NCBI GenBank assembly: GCA_036226585.1
Contig: CP108997.1
Coordinates: forward strand, 4,588,001-4,652,000
Length of the DNA stretch: 64,000 nt
Origin: Streptomyces sp. NBC_00708
GTDB taxonomy: Bacteria; Actinomycetota; Actinomycetes; Streptomycetales; Streptomycetaceae
Reading direction: 5' to 3'
This document shows, piece after piece, positions 299 through 21,171 of the stretch. The notes under the pieces were generated by a model. The model saw nothing but the letters and a program-made list of their open reading frames with translations, did no database searches and was not told the DNA's origin. The position numbers and the translations under genes were made by a program. Within the stretch, counting starts at the first letter, position 1; the number at the start of each line of letters is the position of its first letter.

Positions 299-721
299 AT
301 GAACCTCTTACCAGCGGACCGGCGGCGGGGGACGGCGGCGTCCGGCGCGCCCGCCCGGGATGACCGGGGCCAGACCGCCGTCGAGTTCGTCGGCGCCCTG
401 CCCCTGATCCTCGTCACCCTCGCCCTGCTCTGGCAGGCCGCGGTGGTCGGTTACACCTACGTCCTGGCGGGGAACGCCGCCGACAAGGCGGCCAGGGCCG
501 CCGCGGTCGCGGAGGGCGGCCGGGCGGCGGCCTGCGAAGCGGCGGTGCGCGAGGACGTCCCCGGCGGCTGGAGCACCCAGGTCGACTGCGGCGGATCCGG
601 CGAACTGGTCACCGCGACCGTACGCATCGACGTGCCGCTCCTGTTCCCCGGGGCGTTCAGCCTGCCCATGCACGCGACGGGCGAGGCCAAGGCGAGGAAC
701 GAGGGGCGTGACGCGTGGTGA
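299..721 (+). CDS. TadE-like minor pilin (first copy)
   Basis: A protein of about 140 residues. A short basic N-terminus is followed by a class III prepilin-like signal DRG/QTAVEFVG (Glu at +5, Phe at +6 after the Gly) and a hydrophobic segment. The rest is a small exported domain with two Cys that could pair. TadE family proteins are minor pilins or pseudopilins of the Tad (Flp) pilus, processed by the TadV-type peptidase and held in the membrane. ATG 299 was chosen because GAGGGGG lies 11 nt upstream. A GTG at 257 in the same frame would overlap the previous gene and is an alternative. The stop overlaps the start of the next gene, which points to translational coupling. Confidence 0.8.
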   Translation: MNLLPADRRRGTAASGAPARDDRGQTAVEFVGALPLILVTLALLWQAAVVGYTYVLAGNAADKAARAAAVAEGGRAAACEAAVREDVPGGWSTQVDCGGSGELVTATVRIDVPLLFPGAFSLPMHATGEAKARNEGRDAW

Positions 722-762
722 GGCGCGTGGTGAGGCGCCTGGTGAGGCGCGTGGTGAGGCGC
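715..762 (+). repeat. Four 12-bp tandem repeats at the start of the second tadE
   Basis: Four consecutive copies of GTGGTGAGGCGC lie at 715-726, 727-738, 739-750 (first base C instead of G) and 751-762. Each unit adds four residues in frame (V/L-V-R-R). Copy-number change would alter the length and charge of the N-terminus and the number of available GTG starts without a frameshift. The first unit also contains the TGA stop of the preceding gene. Confidence 0.9.
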
Positions 763-1119
763 CACCCCACGGGTTCCCGGCAACGCGGGCAGGCCGTCAT
801 CGAGTACGTGGGCGTGCTCACCCTGCTCCTCGTCGTCGCGCTGGCCGTCGTCCAGCTGGGCATCGCGGTGTACGCGGCCCAGCAGGCGGGTACGGCCGCG
901 CGGACGGCGGCGCGGGTCGCCTCGACCGACGACCAGACGTACCGAGCGGGCACGGTGGCACGGGAGTCCATGAGCGGCTGGCTGGCGGACGGGGCCACGG
1001 TCACCTCGGGGGGCGGCGGCGATTCCGTCACCGTCACGGTCCGGGTCGCCATCCCCAGCCTGCTGCCGATGTTCTCCTTCGGCTCCGTCGAGAAGAGCGC
1101 CACCATGCCGAGCGACTGA
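715..1119 (+). CDS. TadE-like minor pilin (second copy) with a repeat-encoded Arg-rich N-terminus
   Basis: A 134-residue protein. The first 16 residues are encoded by four 12-bp tandem repeats, giving a VVRR-type basic stretch. Then come a class III signal QRG/QAVIEYVG (Glu +5, Tyr +6), one hydrophobic helix and a short exported domain without Cys. It overlaps the upstream tadE by 7 nt, with GAGGGG 8 nt before GTG 715. Several in-frame GTG codons inside the repeat (718, 727, 730, 742, 751, 754) could also start translation. As a TadE/TadF-type minor pilin it should be anchored with its C-terminal part outside the membrane. The repeat makes the N-terminal charge potentially variable between strains. 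Confidence 0.8.
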   Translation: MVRRVVRRLVRRVVRRHPTGSRQRGQAVIEYVGVLTLLLVVALAVVQLGIAVYAAQQAGTAARTAARVASTDDQTYRAGTVARESMSGWLADGATVTSGGGGDSVTVTVRVAIPSLLPMFSFGSVEKSATMPSD

Positions 1120-1164
1120 CCCGGAACCGACCATGCGGCCAAAGGAAACGAGGGAGTCGAGCAC

Positions 1165-2505
1165 ATGAGCCTGCGGGCGCGCATCACCAGTCCCGAACCG
1201 GCGAACGGGATCAGCGAGGAGAGCCGGCTCGTCGGCGCCTACCGCGCCAAGCTCCTGGAGGAGATCGACCTCGCGGAGATGTCCGCCCTCGCCGCCGCCG
1301 AACGCAGGGCGCGGCTCGAACGCGTCCTCGGCCACATCATCAGCCGCGAAGGCCCCGTCCTGTCCTCCATGGAACGCTCGCAGCTCATCCGGCGGGTCGT
1401 CGACGAGGCCCTGGGCCTCGGCATCCTCGAACCCCTCCTGGAGGACGCCTCCATCAGCGAGATCATGGTCAACGGCCCCGAACAGGTCTACGTGGAGCGC
1501 GGCGGCCGGCTCGAACTCCTCCCGATGCGCTTCTCGTCCAACGAGCAGCTGATGCAGACCATCGAACGCATCGTCTCCACGGTCAACCGCCGCGTGGACG
1601 AGTCGAACCCGATGGTCGACGCCCGGCTCCCCTCGGGCGAGCGCGTCAACGTGATCATCCCGCCGCTCTCCCTGTCGGGACCGATCCTCACCATCCGGCG
1701 CTTCCCCCGCGCCTTCACGCTCCAGGAGATGATCACGCTCGGCTCGCTGGACGAGCACATGCTGGTCCTGCTCGCCGGCTTCGTCCGCGCCAAGTTCAAC
1801 GTGATCGTCTCCGGTGCCACCGGCACCGGCAAGACCACCCTGCTCAACGCGCTCTCCGGACTCATCCCCGGCGCCGAGCGCATCGTGACCATCGAGGACT
1901 CCGCCGAACTCCAGCTCCAGCAGTCCCACGTCATCACGCTGGAGAGCCGGCCGCCCAACGTCGAGGGCAAGGGCCGGGTCACCATCCGCGACCTCGTCCG
2001 CAACTCGCTGCGCATGCGGCCCGACCGCATCATCGTCGGCGAGGTCCGCGGCGGCGAGACCCTGGACATGCTCCAGGCCATGTCCACCGGCCACGACGGC
2101 TCCCTCGCCACCGTCCACGCCAACAGCGCCGAGGACGCGCTGATGCGGCTCCAGACCCTCAGCTCCATGTCCGAGGTCGAGATCCCGTTCGCCGCGATCC
2201 ACGACCAGATCAACAGCGCCGTCGACGTGATCATCCAGCTGACCCGGCACGGCGACGGCTCCCGCCGCATCACCGAGATCGCCGTCGTCGACTCGTACGG
2301 CCGCGAGGACTACCGCATCGTCTCCGTCTGCCGCTTCGAGGCCCTCCCGATGGCGGCGGACGGGCGTGTGTACGGGCGCTTCGCGTACTTCCCGGTGCCG
2401 CGCCGGGTCGCCGAACGCTTCTACATGGCGAACGAGGCCGTCCCGGTGGCCTTCGGAGTCGCCGAAACCGACGACCACCTCCTGGTCCGCACCTCCACCG
2501 CCTAG
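1165..2505 (+). CDS. tadA: TadA/CpaF secretion ATPase of the Flp pilus
   Basis: A 446-residue VirB11/GspE-superfamily ATPase that powers Tad pilus assembly from the cytoplasmic face. The all-alpha/N-terminal domain covers about residues 1-190. Walker A is GATGTGKTT (about 217-225). The Asp/Walker-B region and the His box lie around 290-325 (IIVGEVRGGE, then TGHDGSLATVHAN). Length and motifs are typical of TadA/CpaF. ATG 1165 follows a GAGGGAG-type ribosome-binding site. The gene sits between the tadE pair and tadB in the order usual for actinobacterial Tad loci. Confidence 0.95.
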   Translation: MSLRARITSPEPANGISEESRLVGAYRAKLLEEIDLAEMSALAAAERRARLERVLGHIISREGPVLSSMERSQLIRRVVDEALGLGILEPLLEDASISEIMVNGPEQVYVERGGRLELLPMRFSSNEQLMQTIERIVSTVNRRVDESNPMVDARLPSGERVNVIIPPLSLSGPILTIRRFPRAFTLQEMITLGSLDEHMLVLLAGFVRAKFNVIVSGATGTGKTTLLNALSGLIPGAERIVTIEDSAELQLQQSHVITLESRPPNVEGKGRVTIRDLVRNSLRMRPDRIIVGEVRGGETLDMLQAMSTGHDGSLATVHANSAEDALMRLQTLSSMSEVEIPFAAIHDQINSAVDVIIQLTRHGDGSRRITEIAVVDSYGREDYRIVSVCRFEALPMAADGRVYGRFAYFPVPRRVAERFYMANEAVPVAFGVAETDDHLLVRTSTA

Positions 2506-2567
2506 CGCCCCCCGCCGTTCCCGGCGCCGTCCCCCGTCCGCCGCTCACCCAGAAGGCCCTCCCCGAC

Positions 2568-3506
2568 ATGGACAACCTCCCGCTCCTGACGGTCGGCGTG
2601 ACCCTGCTCGCCTGTGTGCTCGCCGTGGTCGGCCTGCATGTCCTCTCCTCGGGCAGGGAACAGCAGCGGGCACTGATCGACCGTCTGTCCCGGACCGGGC
2701 CACCCGCGCTCACGGGCCGCGTCCGCCGCTTCCGTGGCGTCGACCGGCGGCTGCGCAGGACCCGCCTGGGCAAGCGCGTCGAGCGGAAGATCGCGGTCAC
2801 CGGCCTCGACCTCACCCCCGGGGAGTACGTCGTCTACGTCGCGGCGGCCCTGCTCGGCCTCTACTTCGTCACGGCGTCCGTCTTCGCCCCGTTCTTCGGG
2901 CTCCTGGCCGTCCTCATCGGTGCCTGGGGCGGCAACGCCTTCCTCAACTGGCAGCGCGCCAAACGCACCGAGGCGTTCATCAACCAGCTCCCCGAACTCA
3001 CCCGCGTCCTCGCCAACGCCACCCAGGCCGGCCTCGCCCTGCGCACCGCCATCTCCATGGCCGTCGAGGAACTGGACGACCCCGCCCACGAGGAGCTGCG
3101 CCGGGTCGCCGACCGCCTGGCCATCGGCCACTCCCTCGACGACGCCCTGAACGAACTCGTCGAACGGCTGCCCTCCCGCGAACTGACCGTCCTGGTCTCC
3201 ACCCTCATCCTCTCCAACCGGGCGGGCGGCACCATCGTCTCCTCGCTGCGCAACCTCACGAACACGCTGGAGGAGCGCAAGGAGACCCGGCGCGAGGTCA
3301 CCACCCTGCTCTCCCAGGTGAAGGTCACCGCCGTCGCCGTCCCCGTCCTCGGCCTGATCTTCCTGCTCGTCATCAACGGCATGCGGGGCGGCGCACTCGA
3401 CGACATGGCCGCCGCGACGCCGGGCCGCATCGCCATCGTCGTGGCCGCCGGTCTCTACGGCCTCGGCTTCTTCCTCATCAACCGCCTCACCCGCGTCCGT
3501 ATCTGA
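2568..3506 (+). CDS. tadB: TadB-like inner-membrane platform protein (T2SSF domain)
   Basis: A 312-residue membrane protein of the GspF/T2SSF family. An N-terminal membrane helix (about residues 6-26) is followed by a basic linker, a paired membrane segment near 85-125, the cytoplasmic F domain (about 135-265, with ELTRVLANATQAGLALRTA and SNRAGGTIVSSLRNL) and a C-terminal pair of helices. TadB and TadC together form the platform on which TadA acts. ATG 2568 is preceded by AGAAGG; the same frame stays open far upstream over tadA, but that is shadow reading. It is separated from tadC by 27 nt. Confidence 0.9.
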   Translation: MDNLPLLTVGVTLLACVLAVVGLHVLSSGREQQRALIDRLSRTGPPALTGRVRRFRGVDRRLRRTRLGKRVERKIAVTGLDLTPGEYVVYVAAALLGLYFVTASVFAPFFGLLAVLIGAWGGNAFLNWQRAKRTEAFINQLPELTRVLANATQAGLALRTAISMAVEELDDPAHEELRRVADRLAIGHSLDDALNELVERLPSRELTVLVSTLILSNRAGGTIVSSLRNLTNTLEERKETRREVTTLLSQVKVTAVAVPVLGLIFLLVINGMRGGALDDMAAATPGRIAIVVAAGLYGLGFFLINRLTRVRI

Positions 3507-3533
3507 CGGCCGGAAAGGGACGAGGAGACACAG

Positions 3534-4421
3534 ATGGAATACCTGCTCGCGGCCGTCGTCGCACTCGCCGTACTCGGCGCCTTCCAGGGCATCCGCATGT
3601 ACCGCGCCGAGGCCAGGCTCCCCGGCGACCTGGCCATCGCCCTGGAGGTCGGCGCCAGCCGCACCAGCGCGGCCGGCTCGGCCATCGACCGGATCGGCAT
3701 GCCGTACGCCCCCCGGGTCCTGTCCATGATGGGCCCCAAGCGCGTCGACCGGATCCGCCGCAAACTCGACATGGCCGGCAACCCGCGCGGTCTGACCGTC
3801 GACCGCTACGCCGCCCGGCGCGCGGTCTACGGCGGCCTGGGCATCCTGGCGGCCCTCGCGATGCTGATGAACGGACAGGTGGTCCTGGCCGTCGTCCTGC
3901 TCGTCTACGGGCTGTTCTGGACGGACGTGATCATCCGGGCCGCCATCAGCCGGCGCAAGGACGACATCGAACGCACCCTGCCCGACTTCCTCGACGTCCT
4001 CGCGGTCGTCGTCTCCGCCGGACTCGGCTTCCGGCAGGCACTGGAACGGGTCGCGGAGAAGTACACCGGCCCGTGGTCCGACGAACTGCGCATCACCCTG
4101 CGCCAGATGGACATGGGCGTCAGCAGGCGCGAGGCCTTCGACCAGCTCCGCCGGCGCAACGAGTCCGAACAGGTCTCCATGTTCGTCTCCGCGCTCCAGC
4201 AGGGCGAGGAGCTGGGCGCCCCCATCGTCGACACCCTGATCCAGATCGCCAACGACATGCGGCGCACCGACGCGCAGAACGCCCGGCGCAAGGCGTCCAA
4301 GGCCGTCCCCAAGGCCACGCTGATCGTCACCAGCTTCATGCTCCCGGGCACGATCATCCTGATCGCGGTCGGCTTCTACTACGCGGCGAACGTCGACATC
4401 GGCGAGGTCTTCGGCAGCTGA
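3534..4421 (+). CDS. tadC: TadC-like inner-membrane platform protein (T2SSF domain)
   Basis: A 295-residue second GspF-type platform protein. It has an N-terminal membrane helix, a paired hydrophobic region around residues 95-135, a cytoplasmic F domain (about 140-265, with LPDFLDVLAVVVSAGLGFRQ and ALQQGEELGAPI) and a C-terminal helix. It partners TadB under the TadA ATPase. ATG 3534 is preceded by AGGAG about 8 nt upstream. The downstream gene is a sensor kinase 51 nt away, so the pilus assembly genes and the regulatory pair probably share a transcript. Confidence 0.9.
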   Translation: MEYLLAAVVALAVLGAFQGIRMYRAEARLPGDLAIALEVGASRTSAAGSAIDRIGMPYAPRVLSMMGPKRVDRIRRKLDMAGNPRGLTVDRYAARRAVYGGLGILAALAMLMNGQVVLAVVLLVYGLFWTDVIIRAAISRRKDDIERTLPDFLDVLAVVVSAGLGFRQALERVAEKYTGPWSDELRITLRQMDMGVSRREAFDQLRRRNESEQVSMFVSALQQGEELGAPIVDTLIQIANDMRRTDAQNARRKASKAVPKATLIVTSFMLPGTIILIAVGFYYAANVDIGEVFGS

Positions 4422-4472
4422 CACGCACGCGCACACCGCCCCGACCCCGCCACGAGGAGGTGAGAGGACACC

Positions 4473-5783
4473 ATGGCCCCACGACCGGCCGGCCCCGCCC
4501 TGACCGGCGGCCCCGACGCGACGACACCGGCGAGCTCCCCCGGCCAGGTGCCGCCCCTGCCGATCCAGGTCAACGCCCTCCAGGCCCTGTGCCGCCAGCT
4601 CTTCGGCTTCCGGCTCGCGATGACCGCGCTGGCCGCCCCCTTCGCACTCGCCGCGGTCCACGACGAACTCGGCAGCTGGCTGGCCGGAGCCGCGGTCCTG
4701 GTCACCGTCATGGTGTCGTACATGCTGATGCGCGACTGGGAGCGCTTCGGGCCGTTCCTCCTGCGCCACCCCTCGCTGCTCGCCGCCGACATGCTGTTCG
4801 GCGCGCTGCTGCTGTTCGCGGCCGGTCCGGCGTCGACCCTCTCCTACGTGTCGGTGTGCACCCCGCTCCTCGCGGGCCTCGTCTACAGCTGGCGGGGCGG
4901 GGCCGTCTTCGCCGCGCTGCAGACCCTGCTGCTGGCCGCCGCCTACGGCATCAGCGAGACGGACGAGGCCGACGCGGCGGCGCTCCTCATGGCCGGCCTC
5001 TGCGTCCTGGCCGGCGCGGTCGGCAGCACGCTGCGGGGCCTGCTCCTGCGGTTCGGCGCCGCCTCCCAGGCCCTGACCGAGACCCGGGCACGGCTCGCGG
5101 TCAGCGGGGCCGTGGAGGCCGAACGCGCCCGCCTCGCCCGCGAGATGCACGACTCCGTCGCCAAGACCCTGCACGGTCTCGCCCTGGCGGCCGAAGGCCT
5201 GGCCCGCACCGCCGACCGGTCGGACCCGGAGACCGTCCGGCACCGCGCGGAACTGGTCGCCCGCTCCGCCCGCAGGGCCGCCGCCGAATCCCGCGAACTC
5301 CTCTCGGACCTGCGCCGCGAGTCCGGTCTCGACGGCGGTGTGGACCTCCTCGGCGAACTGGCCGCCCGCACGGCCGACTTCGAGCGCAGGTCCGGCATCC
5401 GGGCCGTCTTCCGCCGCCTCGGCGAGGGCCGGGTCCCGCCCGTCCCGCACGCCGTCGCCCGGCACGCCCTCACCATCGCCGCCGAGGCCCTGGAGAACGT
5501 CCGGCAGCACGCCCGCGCCGGCCTGGTGGACGTCTCGGCCGGCCTCGTCCGCGATGTCGTACGGATCAGCGTGTACGACGACGGCGAGGGCCTGCCGCCC
5601 GGCACCTCGCTGGCCGCCCTGCGCAAGGCCGGCCACTTCGGCCTGGTCGGCATGGTCGAGCGGGCCGCGTCGATCGGCGCCCGCATCCGCATAGGGCGCG
5701 GCCCCGCGGCCCGGGGCACCGAGGTCCGTCTCGACCTGTCCCTCGCCGCGATGGACCTGCCCCCCACCGTCCCCGCCCCCTGA
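4473..5783 (+). CDS. NarL/DegS-type sensor histidine kinase inside the Tad locus
   Basis: A 436-residue membrane sensor kinase. Five to six membrane segments fill residues 45-195 with no sizeable extracellular loop, suggesting sensing in or near the membrane. A HisKA_3 dimerisation region follows, with the phospho-acceptor H226 in REMHDSVAKT, then an HATPase domain (N box EALENVRQHA, G1 box YDDGEGLPP, G2 box HFGLVGM). It is immediately upstream of its response regulator (15 nt). GAGGAGG sits before ATG 4473. Placement between tadC and the Flp pilin gene suggests that the pair controls pilus or pilin expression; that is inference. Confidence 0.9.
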   Translation: MAPRPAGPALTGGPDATTPASSPGQVPPLPIQVNALQALCRQLFGFRLAMTALAAPFALAAVHDELGSWLAGAAVLVTVMVSYMLMRDWERFGPFLLRHPSLLAADMLFGALLLFAAGPASTLSYVSVCTPLLAGLVYSWRGGAVFAALQTLLLAAAYGISETDEADAAALLMAGLCVLAGAVGSTLRGLLLRFGAASQALTETRARLAVSGAVEAERARLAREMHDSVAKTLHGLALAAEGLARTADRSDPETVRHRAELVARSARRAAAESRELLSDLRRESGLDGGVDLLGELAARTADFERRSGIRAVFRRLGEGRVPPVPHAVARHALTIAAEALENVRQHARAGLVDVSAGLVRDVVRISVYDDGEGLPPGTSLAALRKAGHFGLVGMVERAASIGARIRIGRGPAARGTEVRLDLSLAAMDLPPTVPAP

Positions 5784-5798
5784 GAGGAGGCCCGCGCC

Positions 5799-6503
5799 AT
5801 GCCCGACGCCCTGCCCCCCACCCCCGCCGCCGCCCCGCTCCGGGTGCTCGTCGCCGACGACAACCCCGTCGTACGGGCGGGCCTGACGGCCCTGCTGCAC
5901 GGCCGCGACGCGATCACCGTGGTCGCGGAGGCGGACGACGGCCGCCAGGCGTACGAGGGGGCGCTGCGGCACCGCCCGGACGTCGTCCTGCTCGATGTGC
6001 GCATGCCCGGCGTCGACGGCCTTTCGGCCCTGCCGCACCTGGTCCGCCTGGCCCCGGTCCTGATGCTCACCTACAGCCGCGAGAGCGAGGTGGTCCGCCG
6101 GGCGCTGCGGCTGGGGGCGGGGGGCTATCTGGTGCACGGCGAGTTCACCGCGGACGAACTGGTCACCGCGGTGCGCGACACGGCGGCGGGCCGGTCCCGC
6201 TTCACCCCCTCGGCGAACAGCGCCCTGCTGGAGGCCCTGCGGGAGCGGGGGTCCCCGCGAAATGCCCCGCCACCGGGGCCCTTTGTGGGACATTCGGAGC
6301 TGAGCGAACGGGAGGTGGAAGTGATGGACCTGATCGCGTCGGGCCTGTCCAATCAGCAGATCGCCGCCGCCTGTTTCATCAGCCAGAAGACCGTGAAGAA
6401 CCACATCAACCGGATCTTCACCAAACTCCGGGCCGGCAGCCGCGGCGAGGCCATCGCCCTGTGGCACCGCGGGCCGGCCGGGGGAACGGCGCGCCATGGC
6501 TGA
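5799..6503 (+). CDS. NarL/LuxR-family response regulator paired with the Tad-locus kinase
   Basis: A 234-residue two-domain regulator. The receiver domain covers residues 14-130, with the acidic pocket VADDN and phospho-acceptor D66 in LLDVRMPG. A linker precedes the C-terminal LuxR-type HTH (about residues 165-228, LSEREVEVMDLIASGLSNQQ). It follows the kinase gene by 15 nt with a GAGAGGAGG site. The most economical target is the adjacent upstream region of the Flp pilin (6504-6667), since pilin genes need much more product than the assembly genes. No binding motif can be assigned by eye. Confidence 0.92.
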   Translation: MPDALPPTPAAAPLRVLVADDNPVVRAGLTALLHGRDAITVVAEADDGRQAYEGALRHRPDVVLLDVRMPGVDGLSALPHLVRLAPVLMLTYSRESEVVRRALRLGAGGYLVHGEFTADELVTAVRDTAAGRSRFTPSANSALLEALRERGSPRNAPPPGPFVGHSELSEREVEVMDLIASGLSNQQIAAACFISQKTVKNHINRIFTKLRAGSRGEAIALWHRGPAGGTARHG

Positions 6504-6667
6504 AAGCGGTACGGCTTTCGGCCGCCTGTCGCGGGAGTGGGCCCGGAGTTGGGCCCACAGGCCCATGATGAGGGGTGTTGTACCGACGTACGTTGCCGCT
6601 GTCGGGCGGGCACACGGATCAGCGTCGACCGATTCCCGGTCGGTCGGACTCGTAGGGGGACATCCTC
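6504..6667 (+). promoter_or_regulatory. Upstream region of the Flp pilin gene with two hairpins
   Basis: This 164-nt gap separates the response regulator from the pilin. It contains an 8-bp inverted repeat (6537-6544 / 6551-6558, GTGGGCCC and complement, 6-nt loop) that could be a weak terminator or attenuator. A second 6-bp hairpin (6626-6631 / 6637-6642) ends about 10 nt before the pilin's GGGGG ribosome-binding site. A separate pilin promoter is likely because Flp subunits are needed in excess, but no clear -10/-35 pair was identified. Confidence 0.4.
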
Positions 6668-6901
6668 ATGAAGGACATCGCACTCAAGGCGGCGACGCAC
6701 ACCCAGACTTATGTGACTCACTGGGCGAACACCACGGTCGACCACATGAAACGCCGGAGGGACAGGGGGCAGGGGGCGATCGAGTATGTGGGCATCACGA
6801 TTCTGGTGGTGGCGATCGTGATCGCTCTGATCAATACGAAGATGGGCACGTCCATCGCCAACAAGTTCAAGGCGAAGATCACTTCGGTCCTGACGAAGTG
6901 A
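6668..6901 (+). CDS. flp: Flp-family major pilin (type IVb)
   Basis: A 77-residue pilin precursor. A leader of about 34 residues is followed by the class III cleavage motif RDRG/QGAIEYVG (Glu +5, Tyr +6), a 20-residue hydrophobic helix and a short Lys-rich tail (NKFKAKITSVLTK). This is the size and architecture of actinobacterial Flp pilins, the fibre subunit assembled by TadA/B/C after cleavage by the prepilin peptidase. The leader is longer than in Gram-negative Flp proteins, as is usual in Streptomyces. GTAGGGGG precedes ATG 6668. The stop overlaps the GTG start of the next gene. Confidence 0.93.
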   Translation: MKDIALKAATHTQTYVTHWANTTVDHMKRRRDRGQGAIEYVGITILVVAIVIALINTKMGTSIANKFKAKITSVLTK

Positions 6902-7584
6902 GGTTGAGGGGTCGCGAGGACTCGGGGCAGGCGGCACCGCTGTACATCGCGGCGGTGACGGGCCTGCTCTTCGTCGCGTTGATCTTCTTCGCGTTCGGTG
7001 AGGCGGATATTCAGCGCAACGGTGCCCAGGGCGCGGCCGATGCCGCCGCGCTGGCGGCGGCCAAGGAATCGCGCAGCCAGCTCGAACCGGACCTGACGGC
7101 GCATCTCACCGACCCCGACTACTTCGAATCTGTGTTCAATAGGCCCTTCCCGGGGAGCCCCGGCAACGCCTGTGGGAAGGCATCCGAGTTCGCCGCCCTC
7201 AACAAGGCCACTGACGTCCTGTGCCGTCCACTCTCCGATGGCAGATGGGGCTACGAGGTCAGCTTGAAGTCGGACAAGGGCATGAGTACGGACATCGTGC
7301 CGGGCACCGAGGGCAAGAGGGCCGAAGCCGAGGCCGTGGCAGTGGTCGAGCCCCGCTGTACGTTCACGCCTGTCCCTGAGAGCACTCCGGACCCGGAAAG
7401 TACGCCCGACCCGGGCGGCTCGCCGGACGTGGACACGGAAGCGGATCCGGATCCTGATGCGGAGGTCGCGTCGGTCGGCAAGGTTCACTGTGACGGGGGT
7501 CAGGAATGGGCGGTGGACCCCGAGGACTTGGCGCTCATGCCCGACATGGCCGACCTTTTTTCCGTGCGCTTGGCCGAAAACTGA
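6898..7584 (+). CDS. TadG-like pilus-associated protein
   Basis: A 228-residue protein starting at GTG 6898, coupled to flp by a GTGA overlap. Residues 7-40 contain DSGQAAPLYIAAVTGLLFVA, the N-terminal hydrophobic segment of TadG/DUF2134-type proteins, followed by the family's Ala-rich AQGAADAAALAAAKES stretch. The exported part carries several Cys and a low-complexity Pro/Asp/Glu/Ser linker (around 165-200). Unlike Flp and the TadE proteins it has Leu, not Glu, at the +5 position, so peptidase processing is doubtful. TadG-like proteins are thought to anchor or cap the pilus at the cell surface. Confidence 0.75.
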   Translation: MRLRGREDSGQAAPLYIAAVTGLLFVALIFFAFGEADIQRNGAQGAADAAALAAAKESRSQLEPDLTAHLTDPDYFESVFNRPFPGSPGNACGKASEFAALNKATDVLCRPLSDGRWGYEVSLKSDKGMSTDIVPGTEGKRAEAEAVAVVEPRCTFTPVPESTPDPESTPDPGGSPDVDTEADPDPDAEVASVGKVHCDGGQEWAVDPEDLALMPDMADLFSVRLAEN

Positions 7585-7609
7585 CCGCGATGAACGCAAA
7601 GGATCTCGA

Positions 7610-8203
7610 ATGAACTTCCGCCACGTGAGGAAAGTACGCCGGGCTGGGGCCGTAACTCTCCTGGCCGCTTCTCTCCTGCTCTCCGTGACAGCGTGCGGCG
7701 GCGACGAAAAGGGGGCGGAGAAGGCGCCTGCGGCTTCGTCCGACGCGGGAAAGAACCGGAGTGAGAAGGCTACGGGGGACGAAACGCTGCCCGACCGCAG
7801 CAAGACCCTTGCGACCCTCAAGAATGACGAGGGTGTCGAGATGGTCGTGTACTCGGCCAAGAGGGACAGCGGCGGGTTTCTCACCGTCAGCGGCGACTTC
7901 AAGAACTCCGGGGGACAGAGCTTCGTCACACCTGTCCAGTGGAGCGGGCAGGAAGAGGCCGTGGCCGGTGCCGGACCTTCGCTCGCCGGTATGACGCTGG
8001 TGGACTCGGTCGGCAAGAAGCGCTATTACGTACTCCGGGACACCGATAACCGCCCACTCACCACCAGCAATTACGAGCCGAGTATCGAGCCCGGCAAGAG
8101 CCTGAACTTCTTCGCCCAGTTCCCGGCCCCGCCCAGCACGACCGCCAAGGTCGACCTCCAGTTCCCCGGGTTCCCCAACGCGACGATCGAGATCTCCGGA
8201 TGA
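7610..8203 (+). CDS. Putative lipoprotein of the Tad locus
   Basis: A 197-residue protein with a lipoprotein signal: basic n-region (FRHVRKVRR), hydrophobic core (VTLLAASLLLSV) and lipobox TACG with Cys at about residue 32, then an acidic/Ala-rich linker. The mature domain is not recognised beyond resembling small secreted Streptomyces proteins that may form an Ig-like fold (WSGQEEA, then PGKSLNFFAQFPAPP). It lies 25 nt after the TadG gene and overlaps the OmpA-like gene by 4 nt. A surface anchoring or accessory role for the pilus is inferred from context only. Confidence 0.75.
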   Translation: MNFRHVRKVRRAGAVTLLAASLLLSVTACGGDEKGAEKAPAASSDAGKNRSEKATGDETLPDRSKTLATLKNDEGVEMVVYSAKRDSGGFLTVSGDFKNSGGQSFVTPVQWSGQEEAVAGAGPSLAGMTLVDSVGKKRYYVLRDTDNRPLTTSNYEPSIEPGKSLNFFAQFPAPPSTTAKVDLQFPGFPNATIEISG

Positions 8204-8820
8204 CCGCCCGCGGCATGGTGACGACCGTCCTCGCCGGGGTGGTCGCACTGGGAGTCATCGGGGTCCCGCCCGCATCCGCCGACGACAGCCCCTACCCCTC
8301 CGCCTCCGCCGAACCCCCCGTCGAGGTCGACCCCAACGACTCCGACCTCAAGCTCCCCGAGGGCGCCACCCTTGCCCCGCCCAAGGTGCTCGACATCAAG
8401 TCCGTCATCGAGGATCTCGGCGGTGAGGAGCGGCGCGAGGACACCAACGCGGACATCAAGTTCGCCCTCCAGGCCGAAGTGCTCTTCGGCAAGGACAGTG
8501 CCAAGCTGAGCGCCGAGGCGACCGGGCGGATCAACGCCATCGCCGAGGAGATCAAGAAGCAGGACGCCAAGAAAGTCAGGGTGTTCGGGTTCACCGACGA
8601 CCTCGGCTCGTCCGAGCACGGCGACATGCTGTCCAAGAAGCGCGCCGAGGCCGTCCACAACGTGCTGGACCAGGCGCTCGGCGGCACCGGGATCACCTTC
8701 GAGATCCGGGGCTACGGCGAGGACTACCCGATCGCGAGCAACGAGGACGAGGAGGGCCGCCGCAAGAACCGCCGTGTGGAGGTCTCCTTCCAGCGCGGCG
8801 AGAGCGGTGCGCGGAGCTGA
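8200..8820 (+). CDS. OmpA-family (peptidoglycan-binding) secreted protein
   Basis: A 206-residue protein. An N-terminal signal peptide (MTARGMVTTVLAGVVALG, ending near APPASA-like residues) and an acidic linker are followed by an OmpA C-terminal domain at about residues 80-203. The domain carries the typical FGKDSAKLSAEATGRI, the middle segment VFGFTDDLGSSEHGDMLSKK and the end motif GRRKNRRVEVSF. Such domains bind peptidoglycan non-covalently. In a bacterium without an outer membrane this most likely tethers an envelope structure to the wall. Coupled by an ATGA overlap to the lipoprotein gene and last in the Tad operon, it is a good candidate for anchoring the pilus. Confidence 0.88.
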   Translation: MTARGMVTTVLAGVVALGVIGVPPASADDSPYPSASAEPPVEVDPNDSDLKLPEGATLAPPKVLDIKSVIEDLGGEERREDTNADIKFALQAEVLFGKDSAKLSAEATGRINAIAEEIKKQDAKKVRVFGFTDDLGSSEHGDMLSKKRAEAVHNVLDQALGGTGITFEIRGYGEDYPIASNEDEEGRRKNRRVEVSFQRGESGARS

Positions 8821-16971: not shown

Positions 16972-17547
16972 CTACTTGACCGTGATCGAGGCGACGAACG
17001 CGTCCAGATCGTCCGCGCTGAGCGCGCCCTTCACCGCGTTGATCCGGATCGCGAACGGCACGTCCTTCGAGTCGACGCCCGCGACCACCACGCCCGTCAT
17101 CCGGGTGCCCTTCGCCGGGGTGCGCTCCGTGCCGGCCGAGGTGAACTCGTAGTCGATCCTGCGGGCCTGCCGGGCGCTCTCCTCGCCCGCGAGCCGCACG
17201 TCCGTCGTCTCCTTGCGCGTCGTGCCCAGCCCGATTCCGGCGCCCGCCGCCGCTGCCGCCTCCCCGGCGTCGCTCACCCCCCGGGCGAAGTCCAGCTGGA
17301 CCGAGACCATGCCCGTGCGCAGCCCCGACTCCTCCTTGAGCGCGACCGCCGCGTTCGCCGCGCCGCGCCCGGACGCGGACTGCTCCCGGTACCCCTCGTC
17401 CTTCGGGTAGCCGACGGACACGCTCGCCGTGTCCAGCGTCGCCCAGCCGTCCGGGACGGACGCGGCGGACCCGCCCCCGCAGCCGGTGAGCAGGGTCAGA
17501 CCGATGGCGGCGGCAGCGGCCGTGCCGCGTGCCCGGTACCTCTTCAT
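16972..17547 (-). CDS. Putative lipoprotein co-transcribed with the pilin-fusion gene
   Basis: A 191-residue protein. The lipoprotein signal has a basic start (KRYRARG), a short hydrophobic core and lipobox LTGC (Cys about residue 24), followed by a Gly/Ser linker. The mature part (SVGYPKDEGYREQ, then GVVVAGVDSKDVPFAIRINAV and a final ADDLDAFVASITVK) looks like a small secreted Streptomyces domain of unknown function. Its start is 38 bp after the stop of the gene at 17586-19544, with GAGG before the ATG, so both are probably one operon and may act together at the membrane. Confidence 0.75.
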   Translation of the reverse strand: MKRYRARGTAAAAAIGLTLLTGCGGGSAASVPDGWATLDTASVSVGYPKDEGYREQSASGRGAANAAVALKEESGLRTGMVSVQLDFARGVSDAGEAAAAAGAGIGLGTTRKETTDVRLAGEESARQARRIDYEFTSAGTERTPAKGTRMTGVVVAGVDSKDVPFAIRINAVKGALSADDLDAFVASITVK

Positions 17548-17585: not shown

Positions 17586-19544
17586 TCAGTTCGCGCAGTA
17601 GCTGTACGGAAGGTACGTGCGCGTGCCGTCCTGCGGGGCTCCCAGGAACCGCGCGTCGGTCAGGGTCTCCTCCTTGTGCTCCTCGGTGACGTTCATCCCC
17701 AGGCTCATGCCCAGCGAGAGCTCGAATCCGAACTCCTGGGCGTCGGTCTCGCCGTGGTACCGCATGTCCGTGGAGAGCCCGTCCTCGAACATCAGCTGCT
17801 CGAAGGGGTCGTTCCCGGCCGGCTTCTTCTGGAGCGAGTGGTCCCCGAACAGGTAGGCGAAGGGGGCGGTGTTGTCGCCCGAGCCGTCCAGCCACTGTTC
17901 GGCGACGGCCCGTTCGTCCTCGGTGGCCCGGTCCGTGCCCTTGCCGAAGACGAGCGAGTTGCCGGTCACCCGGATGCCGGACTCGGTGGAGGAGCCGGTC
18001 ACCCCGCCCTTCCCGCCGCGCTTGTCCTTGTCCTTCTTGCCGTTGTCGACGCCGTCCTCGATCTTCCCGGAGGCCGTACCGCTGCTCTCGACGGTCTGCG
18101 TCATGTCGATCCGTACGAGCCTGCCGGTCTTCTGGTCGCGGGTGACCGTCATCGTTCCCGTACGGCTCTGCCGGCCGCCCAGCGCACCGGTCACCGGGCC
18201 CGCCGTCCCCGACGCCTTGGCCTCCAGGTCCAGCTTGGCGCTGTAGGTGTACGACTCGTTGCCGCTGATGTCGTCCTTGGTGACGGTCACATCGGGAGCG
18301 AACGTGGCCCTGCCGCCGAGCCGCGCGCCGAGTCCGGACGCCTCGCCCGCGTCGACCGACAGCCCGCCGTCCGCGTAGGCGTTCAGACCGACCGTCGCGT
18401 AGGAGATCTTCTTGTCACCGATCTTCCTCTCGACGTCCTCCTTCTTCTCGGCCCACTTCATGCCCGAGTACCAGCCGCCGCCGTAGCCTCCGCTGTACTT
18501 CGTCGAGGTCTCCCACATCTTCATCTCCTCGATGTCGTCCCGCAGTTCAGCGGCCTGCTCCTCACTCTCGAAGACCCAGGTGTCACCGTTGGTGATCTTG
18601 ATCCCGCCGCCGACGTCGACCTCCGCCCTGCCGTACTTGCCGAGCTTCCCGCCCGCCTTGGCGCTCGCCCCGACGGACGCGGCGTCCGTGAACGTCATGG
18701 TGACGACCTTGTCGTCCCCGTCCACCGTGCCGTCCCCGTTCACATCGGTGCTGGCGAGGCTCACCGTCTGCTGGAAGCCGTACTCGTTGCCCCACTCGAA
18801 CCAGCCGACCTTCACCTTGTCGCCCACCGTGTCCGAGATGCTGGATATCTGGCACTGGTCGGGCTCGTAGTCCGCGTCGGTCCTCGGCCCGGCCTCGTCG
18901 CCGCCGTCCGCGTCGGCGCAGGCCGCCCCACCGCCGGTGACCGACGCGACGGCGCAGCGGAACCGGTCGCTGATGCCGGCCGCCACCCCGGTCGTGATCA
19001 GCGCCAGCACGATGGCGGTGGCCAGGACGATCACCCCGAGGTACTCGGTCGCGGAGGCGCCCGCGTCCCGCCAGCTGTACGGGGCGGCCATCGGCTCCGG
19101 CTCGCCGTCCTCCATCAGCCGGTCGAGGCCCAGGCCCACCACCGTCCCGGTCGCCGCCGCCACGAGGGGCATCAGGACGCCCTCGGCCCCGACGGCCTGC
19201 CGGGCCATCGCGTAGCCGTAGCAGAGGCCGCCCAGCGGCACGCCCAGACCGGCGAGCAGGTACGACGCCCGGGAACCGCGCCGCTCCTCGGGCAGCACCC
19301 GGACGGCGGCGAGCACGGTGAGCACGGTGGTGAGGACGGCCGGCACGTGCAGCAGGCCCAGCCGCCAGGCGAAGGAATCGAGCCGGTCCCCGGTGGCCAG
19401 CATGGCGACGAGACCGCGCGAGACCAGGTATCCGGCGGCGAGGTAGACGACCGTGCCGGCGGCCCAGCTGCGGGCCAGCGGGAAGAACGCGCTCCCGGGG
19501 CCGCCCCCGTCCCCCGCCGTGCTCCTGCCGCTGCCACCGCTCAC
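17586..19544 (-). CDS. Multi-span membrane protein with an embedded Flp-type pilin segment and a large exported domain
   Basis: A 652-residue protein of unusual architecture; the whole is not recognised. Residues 26-145 form four hydrophobic spans. Residues 158-200 read WRDAG/ASATEYLGVIVLA and continue as a 20-residue hydrophobic helix and GISDRFRCAVASV, aligning well with the Flp pilin at 6668 (Glu +5, Tyr +6 after Gly). After this comes about 450 residues of polar, beta-prone sequence. It includes a Ca-binding-like DVNGDGTVDGDD loop (267-278), Gly/Tyr-rich and Lys/Asp-rich stretches, and a final YLPYSYCAN. GTG 19544 follows GGAGGGGGAG. A prepilin peptidase gene lies 770 bp away. Cleavage at the pilin site would separate the four-span domain from the exported part. 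Confidence 0.85.
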   Translation of the reverse strand: MSGGSGRSTAGDGGGPGSAFFPLARSWAAGTVVYLAAGYLVSRGLVAMLATGDRLDSFAWRLGLLHVPAVLTTVLTVLAAVRVLPEERRGSRASYLLAGLGVPLGGLCYGYAMARQAVGAEGVLMPLVAAATGTVVGLGLDRLMEDGEPEPMAAPYSWRDAGASATEYLGVIVLATAIVLALITTGVAAGISDRFRCAVASVTGGGAACADADGGDEAGPRTDADYEPDQCQISSISDTVGDKVKVGWFEWGNEYGFQQTVSLASTDVNGDGTVDGDDKVVTMTFTDAASVGASAKAGGKLGKYGRAEVDVGGGIKITNGDTWVFESEEQAAELRDDIEEMKMWETSTKYSGGYGGGWYSGMKWAEKKEDVERKIGDKKISYATVGLNAYADGGLSVDAGEASGLGARLGGRATFAPDVTVTKDDISGNESYTYSAKLDLEAKASGTAGPVTGALGGRQSRTGTMTVTRDQKTGRLVRIDMTQTVESSGTASGKIEDGVDNGKKDKDKRGGKGGVTGSSTESGIRVTGNSLVFGKGTDRATEDERAVAEQWLDGSGDNTAPFAYLFGDHSLQKKPAGNDPFEQLMFEDGLSTDMRYHGETDAQEFGFELSLGMSLGMNVTEEHKEETLTDARFLGAPQDGTRTYLPYSYCAN

Positions 19545-19674: not shown

Positions 19675-19853
19675 TAGGGCGTGTCCGAAAAGTCCCGTCT
19701 GGCCCGCGACGCCTGGCACGCACTCTCGCCGCACCGGCCAACATCCCAAGTACGTCCAGTACGAGGGATGTCGGCCGGCACGCCGAGAGCACGCACCAGA
19801 CGCCGCAGGCCACGCCCTTCGGGCGTACGACGGGACTTTGCGGACACGCCCTA
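19675..19853. mobile_element. MITE-like 179-bp long inverted-repeat element
   Basis: The outer 25 bases at 19675-19699 and 19829-19853 are inverted copies with one mismatch (ends TAGGGCGTGTCCG). Inside, the arms continue as an imperfect palindrome (for example ACATCCC at 19741 against GGGATGT at 19765). The right arm has an extra small hairpin (GCCCTTCGGGC, 19814-19824). No open reading frame of transposase type is present, so it would be non-autonomous. TA is present at both tips, which could be a TA target duplication. Its right tip supplies the TAG stop of the DUF192 gene. Confidence 0.7.
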
Positions 19854-20222
19854 CGGAGCCTGGGTCACCCGCACCTGTACGCCCGGTCGCAGCCCCCACG
19901 CCGCCATGGCACCGGCCTCCGCCTCGATCACATGCCGGCCGCGCAGCCGGGGCAGACCCAGCCGGCCCGGCCGCAGGGTGTGGACCGCCAGCACGTTGAA
20001 CCTCCGGTCCAGGTACGCCACATCGATCGTGAACCGCATCCGGAAGGAGTGCACACTCCCGCACGGCGTGATCATCAGCGCCCCGTCGACCCCGTCCCGC
20101 CCGAGCAGCCCGCGCGCCCGGTGCCGGTAGGAGGCCGCGATCCGCAGCGGCACCCGGATCTCGGTCACCCCGTCCCGGTCCGTGATCGTGAGCGTTCCCG
20201 TGCCATCGCGCCATCGAGCCAT
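19851..20222 (-). CDS. DUF192 family protein
   Basis: A 123-residue protein covering the DUF192 fold: LRIAASYRHRARGLLGRDGVDGALMITPCGSVHSFRMRFTIDVAYLD near the middle, then a C-terminal AGAMAAWGLRPGVQVRV. The conserved Leu-Leu-Gly-Arg and the Cys/His-containing PCGSVHSFRM segment are present. The biochemical role is unknown; in actinobacteria the gene is often near prepilin peptidase and pilus genes. Its stop codon TAG (19853-19851) coincides with the tip of the inverted-repeat element, so the original C-terminus may have been changed by insertion. Start ATG 20222. Confidence 0.85.
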   Translation of the reverse strand: MARWRDGTGTLTITDRDGVTEIRVPLRIAASYRHRARGLLGRDGVDGALMITPCGSVHSFRMRFTIDVAYLDRRFNVLAVHTLRPGRLGLPRLRGRHVIEAEAGAMAAWGLRPGVQVRVTQAP

Positions 20223-20310: not shown

Positions 20311-21171
20311 GTGTACGCCATGCTGATAGGGATCGCCGCGCTCTGGGGCGGAGCGACCGGCCTGCTGGTCCCGCGCGCCGCCTACCGGTTCTCCGTCCCG
20401 TCCGGCGAACCCTGGCGGGACGCCTGCCCGGCGGGCCACTGCCTCACCGGCCCCGCCCGCGGCTGGCTCGGCCCCGCCCGCTGCCGGGCCTGCGGGGAGC
20501 CGGTGGCGATGGGGGTGCGAACGGGTGCGGCGGTGCCCGGCACCGTGGCACCGGAACCGGCGGCCGTGGCGCCCGAACCCCGTACGGAACCGGCGGAGGG
20601 GGACCCCGTCACCCCGCCCCCCGGCACCCCCCGTTACGCCCACCGCCTCGCCCCCGTCCTCACCGCGCTGATCTGTGCCGCGCTCGCGTGGGGCACCGGG
20701 ACGCGGCCCGAGCTGGCGGTCTGGCTGGTGCTCGCACCGGTCGGCGTGCTCCTCGCGAGCATCGACCACCGCGTCCACCGGCTCCCCGACGCACTGACGC
20801 TGCCGGGCGCCGGGGCCGCCGCCGTGCTCCTGGGCCCGGCGGCACTCCTGCCGGAACACGCGGGGTCCTGGCTCTCCGCCCTGCTCGGCGGACTCGCCCT
20901 GGGCGGCTTCTACTTCCTGCTGTTCCTGATCAACCCGAACGGCATGAGCTTCGGCGACGTCAAACTCGCCCTCTCCCTGGGCACGGTCCTCGGCTGGTAC
21001 GGCTGGGCCGTCGTCTTCGCCGGAGGCTTCGCGGGCTTCCTCTTCGGGGCGGTGTACGGGGTGGGGCTCGTCGCTCTGCGGCGCGCCGGGCGGAACGCGA
21101 GCATCCCGTTCGGCCCGTTCATGCTCGCCGGAACGCTCCTGGGCCTGCTGTTCGGCGGGCTGGGCGCCTGA
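20311..21171 (+). CDS. Type IV prepilin peptidase (A24 family)
   Basis: A 286-residue integral membrane aspartic peptidase. Residues 1-75 resemble the N-terminal methylase-type domain, with a Cys cluster (ACPAGHC, then ARCRACGEP) that could bind a metal. After a Pro-rich linker come about six membrane helices with the two catalytic Asp motifs, SIDHRVHRLPDALT and GMSFGDVKLALSLG. It should cut the class III signals of Flp and the TadE proteins at 1-8820 and is the only such peptidase in the window. It is divergent from the DUF192 gene (88 bp). GTG 20311 appears leaderless. Confidence 0.9.
   Translation: MYAMLIGIAALWGGATGLLVPRAAYRFSVPSGEPWRDACPAGHCLTGPARGWLGPARCRACGEPVAMGVRTGAAVPGTVAPEPAAVAPEPRTEPAEGDPVTPPPGTPRYAHRLAPVLTALICAALAWGTGTRPELAVWLVLAPVGVLLASIDHRVHRLPDALTLPGAGAAAVLLGPAALLPEHAGSWLSALLGGLALGGFYFLLFLINPNGMSFGDVKLALSLGTVLGWYGWAVVFAGGFAGFLFGAVYGVGLVALRRAGRNASIPFGPFMLAGTLLGLLFGGLGA

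Follow-up and report, generated by a model that had tools for sequence, protein, structure and literature searches.

The closest described systems are large minor pilins of Tad pili: KilN of Myxococcus (PMC12075869) and CpaL of Caulobacter (PMC12607857), each placed or predicted at the pilus tip according to the available text of these reports. The extra domain of KilN4 is described as having no structural relative in the PDB (PMC12075869), and CpaL is described as containing vWA and beta-barrel parts (PMC12607857). PilB of the monoderm Streptococcus sanguinis is reported to be a modular type IV pilin, with a functional module attached to its pilin part (PMC8179133); together with PilC, it is also named in the available text of PMC12075869. 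PilB, however, is not a Flp/Tad protein, and the available text of PMC8179133 mentions no polytopic leader. As far as their accessible text goes, class III leaders are given as 6–26 aa long (PMC4471445), and the PilFind rule allows one membrane helix only and a length under 350 aa (PMC3244431).

The window, i.e., the whole stretch of 64,000 nucleotides that was analysed, comes from Streptomyces sp. NBC_00708. Its minus-strand ORF at 17586..19544 encodes a 652-aa protein which ORF reading and family search indicate to be a giant prepilin of the Tad type with a four-span membrane protein fused to its front. As in KilN and CpaL, a prepilin site and a pilin helix are followed by a large unusual domain, in association with a Tad system. 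The two marks of the tip pilins, a large domain and Tad linkage, are both present, as 490 residues follow the site and the tad locus lies ~9 kb away. In contrast to KilN and CpaL, fused forms such as this one carry a four-span protein before the site, and the cassette partners differ; the likeness is one of description, and a polytopic leader goes without mention for either protein in the available text of PMC12075869 and PMC12607857. With 162 residues and four predicted helices, the leader of the window protein falls outside both the 6–26 aa range (PMC4471445) and the one-helix rule (PMC3244431). Among the titles and abstract openings covered, a body of literature that takes in little of the subscription journals and bioRxiv, there was no report of a giant Tad pilin with a polytopic leader.

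The giant ORF and its neighbourhood

The sequence-only reading had proposed a membrane protein here without stating the strand; the ORF was confirmed, on the minus strand, with GTG as start codon and GGAGGGGG immediately upstream. It had also counted four membrane spans ahead of the pilin box. AlphaFold2, run on a 75-row alignment (mean pLDDT 73, pTM 0.59), agrees with this count by giving helices at residues 20–49, 58–83, 92–113 and 120–146, while a hydropathy threshold detects all four in a relative but only three in the window protein. This four-span part (4TM; residues 20–146, 19107..19487, minus strand) is moreover homologous to a separate cassette gene of split relatives, in which the prepilin stands alone. 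The positive-inside signal is modest, with five K/R in residues 82–121, yet also five in the first 60 residues past the pilin helix; we read the N-terminus and the box as cytoplasmic. The whole protein matched no family in Pfam (none up to E 1), NCBIfam or PHROGs, in line with the earlier remark that no named family is known to have such a domain order. A NifT match (E 0.11, under the cut-off) was put down to chance.

The giant ORF is followed, 38 bp downstream, by the gene of a 191-aa lipoprotein (16972..17547, minus strand). Because such a gene lies downstream on the same strand at 80 of the 81 giant ORFs of named genomes, the lipoprotein belongs to the unit, as had been suspected. It matched no Pfam family above the cut-off; weak DcrB and PsbP-like matches were obtained in one locus only, L130. 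The DUF192 gene (19851..20222, minus strand), counted earlier towards the same possible unit, is better left out of it. According to family search and locus comparison, DUF192 and the peptidase are each seen at 26/33 fused loci, and DUF192 at only 2 of 31 split loci, L046 and L047, in the stretch examined; it looks like a neighbour of the peptidase, and is probably not a member of the cassette. The prepilin peptidase itself (20311..21171, plus strand; PF01478, E 1.6e-12), a candidate for the processing enzyme, starts 766 bp from the start of the giant ORF, against the roughly 770 bp first given. Between the giant gene and DUF192 lies a near-palindromic element of ~180 bp (19676–19856), which resembles a small non-coding mobile element; one copy at 94% and six more that are partial or weaker occur elsewhere in the genome.

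The tad locus (299..8820, plus strand), delimited by family searches and reading, comprises on that strand two TadE-like genes (299–721 and 727–1119), a CpaF-type ATPase (1165–2505), two T2SSF proteins (2568–3506 and 3534–4421, which we take to be TadB and TadC, respectively), a histidine kinase and a response regulator named by reading, a Flp pilin that scores below Pfam (6668–6901), a TadG-like protein (6898–7584), a lipoprotein listed between the latter and OmpA, and OmpA (8200–8820). In the TadC-like protein at 3534–4421, the first 141 residues, ahead of the T2SSF domain, match PF19359 (DUF5936).

The prepilin site and the beta-rich domain

Sequence and family alignment place the predicted cleavage box, YSWRDAG/ASATEYLG, at residues 156–170 (19035..19079, minus strand), with the cut expected between G162 and A163. 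This is a Flp-type site, G162/A163-S-A-T-E167-Y168, with Gly at −1, Glu at +5 and Tyr at +6. The hydrophobic helix of the pilin N-terminus follows (residues 163–189, 18978..19058, minus strand); hydropathy averages 2.54 over residues 171–189, and the hydrophobic stretch of about 20 residues seen in type IV pilins is present. AlphaFold2 draws a helix at 165–183 with low confidence, as it does the whole stretch 149–217, the cleavage site itself having a pLDDT of 31–45. Residues 159–207 share 43% identity (E 6.5e-5) with the Flp pilin of the window. Flp_Fap (PF04964) matched neither the giant protein, for which families were searched up to E 1, nor the window's own Flp pilin up to E 0.01. Residues 158–200 had been taken for a class III prepilin signal and pilin helix aligning with the Flp pilin of the same region; this range indeed covers site and helix, and both the Glu +5/Tyr +6 assignment and the alignment hold.

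Of 7998 candidates scored in a protein search, 279 were relatives at E <= 1e-3. Query coverage is 94–100% in the 120 of them that were listed, and these are from Streptomyces wherever named; an alignment-based second search added at least five. In the window protein and in 125/125 database relatives among the matches listed (the 120 of 279, and five from the second search), the site reads G−1, E+5 and Y, F or L at +6. The 81 giant ORFs of named genomes have Gly at −1 in 81/81, and at +5 Glu in 79 and Asp in two (L195, where it is one of the two copies, and L229). Since the site pattern served as a filter in this set and in the set of 64 ORFs described below, the unfiltered evidence is a 42-row alignment built without the motif, in which G−1 and E+5 are invariant. 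Homologues were thus examined for loss of Glu +5 or of the aromatic +6, and the exceptions, Asp +5 in 2 of 81 and Leu +6 in two far relatives, do not refute the pilin reading.

The remainder of the protein (residues 229–652, 17589..18860, minus strand) is a conserved domain that had been described from the sequence as beta-prone. It is beta-rich in the AlphaFold2 model of the window protein, with long antiparallel strands from residue 230 to 634, and two AlphaFold models predict a 12-strand, barrel-like meander. The model of the whole protein thus consists of four helices, a pilin helix of low confidence and a beta-rich rest. C231 and C650 are nearly invariant in the family, as is C209 just upstream of the domain; conservation extends over the whole length of the domain, including the C-terminus in 16 aligned members, and the domain is not polymorphic. 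A Ca-binding-like loop had also been noticed. The motif DVNGDGTVDGDD is there at residues 267–278 (18711..18746, minus strand), but its calcium-loop character is less secure: a dockerin model matches 8 of 11 family members weakly (best E 7e-4) and does not match the window protein itself, and a loop of this type is missing from L017 and L018.

Both models match in fold 12-strand translocator barrels of autotransporters (BrkA, NalP, EspP), at 5–10% identity in the top rows. Membrane insertion is unsupported here, which sets the domain apart from these barrels. Streptomyces has no outer membrane. Amphipathic strands were counted at 12–18% in ten family members, 8–29% in 13 non-barrel E. coli controls and 15–27% in four barrel controls; as the barrel and non-barrel E. 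coli K-12 controls overlap, this count speaks neither for nor against a membrane barrel. A sequence search of the PDB with the beta domain gave no match, and a BFVD structure search gave low-probability matches only.

Fused and split architectures of one family

Across the order (293 genomes, nine genera), 53 genomes have the beta domain; all of them belong to a single genus, and three show partial matches only. Among 396 genomes of the phylum, one match fell outside the genus (G371, locus L130; giant protein at E 2.5e-27); it comes from another actinobacterial family and has the site MWVSERG/QTAPEYVG. A 30% match at G000:C1:6972406 was rejected: its right frame reads as a major facilitator type transporter (MFS_1 over the matching segment, E 7e-8, just below the cut-off), so the match is a chance likeness of membrane helices. 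Looking for the same domain order in other Streptomyces brought up the fused form (e.g., in S. griseus, S. globisporus, S. anulatus and S. microflavus) and, in addition, a split form (e.g., in S. viridochromogenes DSM 40736, S. coeruleorubidus and S. niveus).

From 66 beta-domain ORFs of the collected loci (without L048) and the window, two ORFs of G109 lacking a pilin site were dropped. The 64 ORFs with the site divide into 33 fused ones, with the four spans in frame, and 31 split ones, which are stand-alone prepilins. The dropped G109 loci, L131 and L132, show partial beta-domain matches without the pilin site. A separate four-span gene lies near 27 of the 31 split ORFs, downstream in 25 and upstream in two, and was not found at E 1e-4 in the other four (L088, L126, L127, L130). 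Near the 33 fused ORFs, such a gene occurs only in L107, where it belongs to an adjoining split cassette. The start codon nearest to the Gly lies 12–41 codons before it in 27/31 split ORFs, 5–6 codons in three and 48 in one, these starts being the nearest candidates and not established ones. After the site, the stand-alone relatives measure 460–499 aa, matching the fused form. Because the same protein is encoded in relatives behind a short leader alone, the middle of the window protein is a genuine class III prepilin segment, a pilin reading that the sequence comparison supports well.

The lipoprotein gene lies downstream in 31/31 split loci and is present in 32/33 fused ones. A DUF3592-like gene, assigned with a custom profile and from a single PF12158 match in Pfam at a fused locus, accompanies 21/31 split loci in the stretch examined. 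With respect to cpaF, 25 of the 31 split genes are divergent at a distance of ~5–6 kb and two are on the same strand; four have no cpaF in the stretch examined.

Two further samples agree on the place of the four-span gene. In a genus sample of 61 genomes (the best 20 candidates being scored in several of them, and the window's genome being scored fully), the complete fused protein was present in seven genomes, that of the window among them, and nine others had no more than the portion from residue 117–160 onward, as a separate ORF. A separate 4TM match was obtained in 9/9 split vs. 0/7 fused genomes, which therefore indicates gene fusion onto a giant Tad pilin. The 80 named loci yielded 81 giant ORFs, 44 fused and 37 split; within the flanks, a separate 4TM gene was downstream of 32/37 split and 0/44 fused ORFs, and the other five split ORFs had none. 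The comparison establishes, at the level of sequence, two architectures of one family that share cassette partners and both keep the class III box. A Flp pilin built into the middle of a membrane protein, as first described, is not what these relatives indicate; instead, a four-span cassette gene has been fused ahead of a giant prepilin.

The split order is likely ancestral, for two reasons. In L128 and L129, the giant gene is immediately preceded by the 4TM gene, and the two overlap in an ATGA that contains the TGA stop of the latter and the ATG start of the former; this order is only a short step away from fusion. L130, moreover, has the cassette of giant prepilin, lipoprotein (E 5e-8), one gene and then a four-span gene (E 3e-6), both values being from a search among the ORFs of that single locus. 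A 64-row tree built from the mature part did not resolve the fused rows into a single clade. A 44-row tree, with 20 rows left out (L130 among them), grouped 19 fused rows in one clade (100/99) with the second copy of L107 outside, and one origin was not rejected (AU p 0.21). In a 33-row tree including the two fused copies of L195, the fused state appeared in three places, one origin being just short of rejection (AU p 0.057). Long branches are involved in these trees. Two giant pilins stand side by side in L107 (G238; one split, one fused) and in L195 (S. hiroshimensis; both fused), and these double copies suggest further fusions. Overall, several fusions are likely from the sequences at hand.

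Proposed cleavage of the fused form, and pilin-headed toxins

We think it probable, though well short of assured, that the window protein is a giant minor Tad (Flp) pilin whose leader was replaced by a whole four-span protein via gene fusion, and that it is cut by the peptidase and displayed on the pilus. The separate neighbour genes of many relatives suggest that the peptidase which trims pilins would cut the fused parts apart again. The Sec machinery would insert the four-helix part so that its two ends face the cytoplasm, and the linker would hold G162/A163 at the cytoplasmic face. There, an A24 prepilin peptidase would cut between these residues and release a free 4TM protein and a mature giant pilin of 490 residues, i.e., the same two proteins that come from two genes in split genomes. 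Through its pilin helix, the mature protein may then take its place in the Tad pilus as a minor subunit, probably at the tip, and expose the beta domain on the outside, where this could serve in adhesion or sensing. Folding, holding or handing over of the subunit could be assisted by the lipoprotein and the 4TM protein, joined by DUF3592 in loci that have it.

Alternatively, the site may go unused in the fused form, the pilin helix serving as a fifth span that keeps the beta domain anchored at the outer membrane face as a fixed surface protein. We consider such an uncut anchor unlikely, even if a four-span leader of 162 residues exceeds the range reported for class III signals. In the 32 rows of the main fused group (L107 left out, L195 outside the set), Y−7, R−4, D−3, G−1, A+3, E+5, Y+6, L+7 and G+8 never change, in contrast to position −2 and the linker from −21 to −8. 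That G−1 and E+5 are unchanged in 32/32 rows beside a variable linker argues for cleavage of what is, by sequence, a prepilin site. It should be noted that this conservation is support and not proof, because the rows are 63–98% identical and 258 of 641 columns are invariant anyway, so that the group is alike enough for conservation to linger in an uncut protein. Against an anchor also stands that ordinary leaders predominate among split relatives sharing this mature part, and we know of no role for G−1 without cleavage.

A second alternative is a delivered effector, in which the Tad pilus would carry a beta barrel into the membrane of another cell and the lipoprotein would protect the producer. 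This appears improbable, given that the amphipathic-strand count, lying within both control ranges, lends it no support, that the domain lacks polymorphism and is conserved over its whole length, and that no toxin family matched. Still less probable is an internal start, by which the fused gene would also yield a short prepilin from an in-frame codon near the box, the four-span part then being no real leader. The window does have an ATG 10 codons before G162 with GGAG upstream; in a scan for ATG and GTG codons, however, a start with a Shine-Dalgarno-like sequence was present in 1/33 fused genes, that of the window only, and 8/33 had no in-frame ATG or GTG within 30 codons. Finally, an ordinary membrane helix with a coincidental G-xxxx-E-Y is scarcely credible and, in our judgement, refuted for the family: the motif alone gives many false positives according to the available text of PMC3244431, but the site recurs in 125/125 relatives among the matches listed and in 79/81 ORFs of named genomes, stand-alone prepilin relatives exist, and the segment is 43% identical to the Flp pilin of the window.

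A parallel arrangement occurs in another group of Streptomyces proteins. Several, some of which also have a Gly-rich linker, combine multiple membrane spans and a Flp box with a Tox-REase-5 domain at the C-terminus (L036:4327–6804, L037:6433–8793, L023:1054–3210, and L137, L139 and L142, of which L139 and L142 are cut by the locus end). Hydropathy gives two to four spans before the box in the three proteins examined, and 17 matches to this N-terminus at E < 1e-40 were found in 11 of the 61 genomes. By their domain order, these proteins are polymorphic toxins with a putative prepilin head. Others join a Flp box to a pretoxin HINT domain and varied C-termini (L036:13943–15424, L037:14302–15870, L043:17816–19435 and L148:253–2433); their leaders appear short in L036, L037 and L043. 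Small genes behind some Flp-box toxins could be immunity genes, the one after the Tox-REase-5 protein of L037 having an Imm52 match of E 0.099, under the cut-off. An apparently frameshifted Flp-headed, toxin-type gene was seen in L048/L140 (G005).

Pilin-headed toxins as such are already in print, as PMC12605009 in its available text names Flp pilins among the partners of ARC toxin domains; the word "pilin" does not occur in the available text of a 2012 survey (PMC3482391). These toxins resemble the window protein in that some have, in Streptomyces, a multi-span part, a Flp box and a large passenger. They differ in that several bear toxin domains, which the window protein does not, and that their multi-span part is unrelated as far as detection goes: hhalign gave a probability of 0.1 between the two leaders, lower than a reversed control, a failure to detect homology and no proof of separate origin. 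The window protein was rejected as a polymorphic toxin, as it has no toxin domain and its C-terminus is conserved. Toxin-type paralogues in the window's genome amounted to the Flp pilin and one match at E 0.06.

Tentatively, polytopic-leader prepilins may form a class of their own, in which the last cytoplasmic segment would be the peptidase site and one cut would free both a membrane partner and a giant pilin. Such leaders would have arisen more than once in Streptomyces: on the present four-span part, perhaps in up to three fusions, ahead of a conserved barrel-like domain, and again on a multi-span part of other descent, ahead of polymorphic toxins. The Tad pilus would then be a route for display or delivery of large passengers in a single-membrane bacterium. 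Should the predicted cut take place in the fused form, prepilin peptidases would tolerate substrates outside the rules of a standard pilin predictor (one span, motif near the N-terminus, <350 aa), and a class of pilus-borne proteins may therefore have been overlooked. Comparison of split and fused genomes offers a natural experiment in which to ask if cutting the fused form brings back the two-protein state of the ancestor. Moreover, the similar architecture of the toxins makes it a question directly open to testing, in harmless soil strains, whether Tad pili act as toxin carriers in monoderm bacteria.
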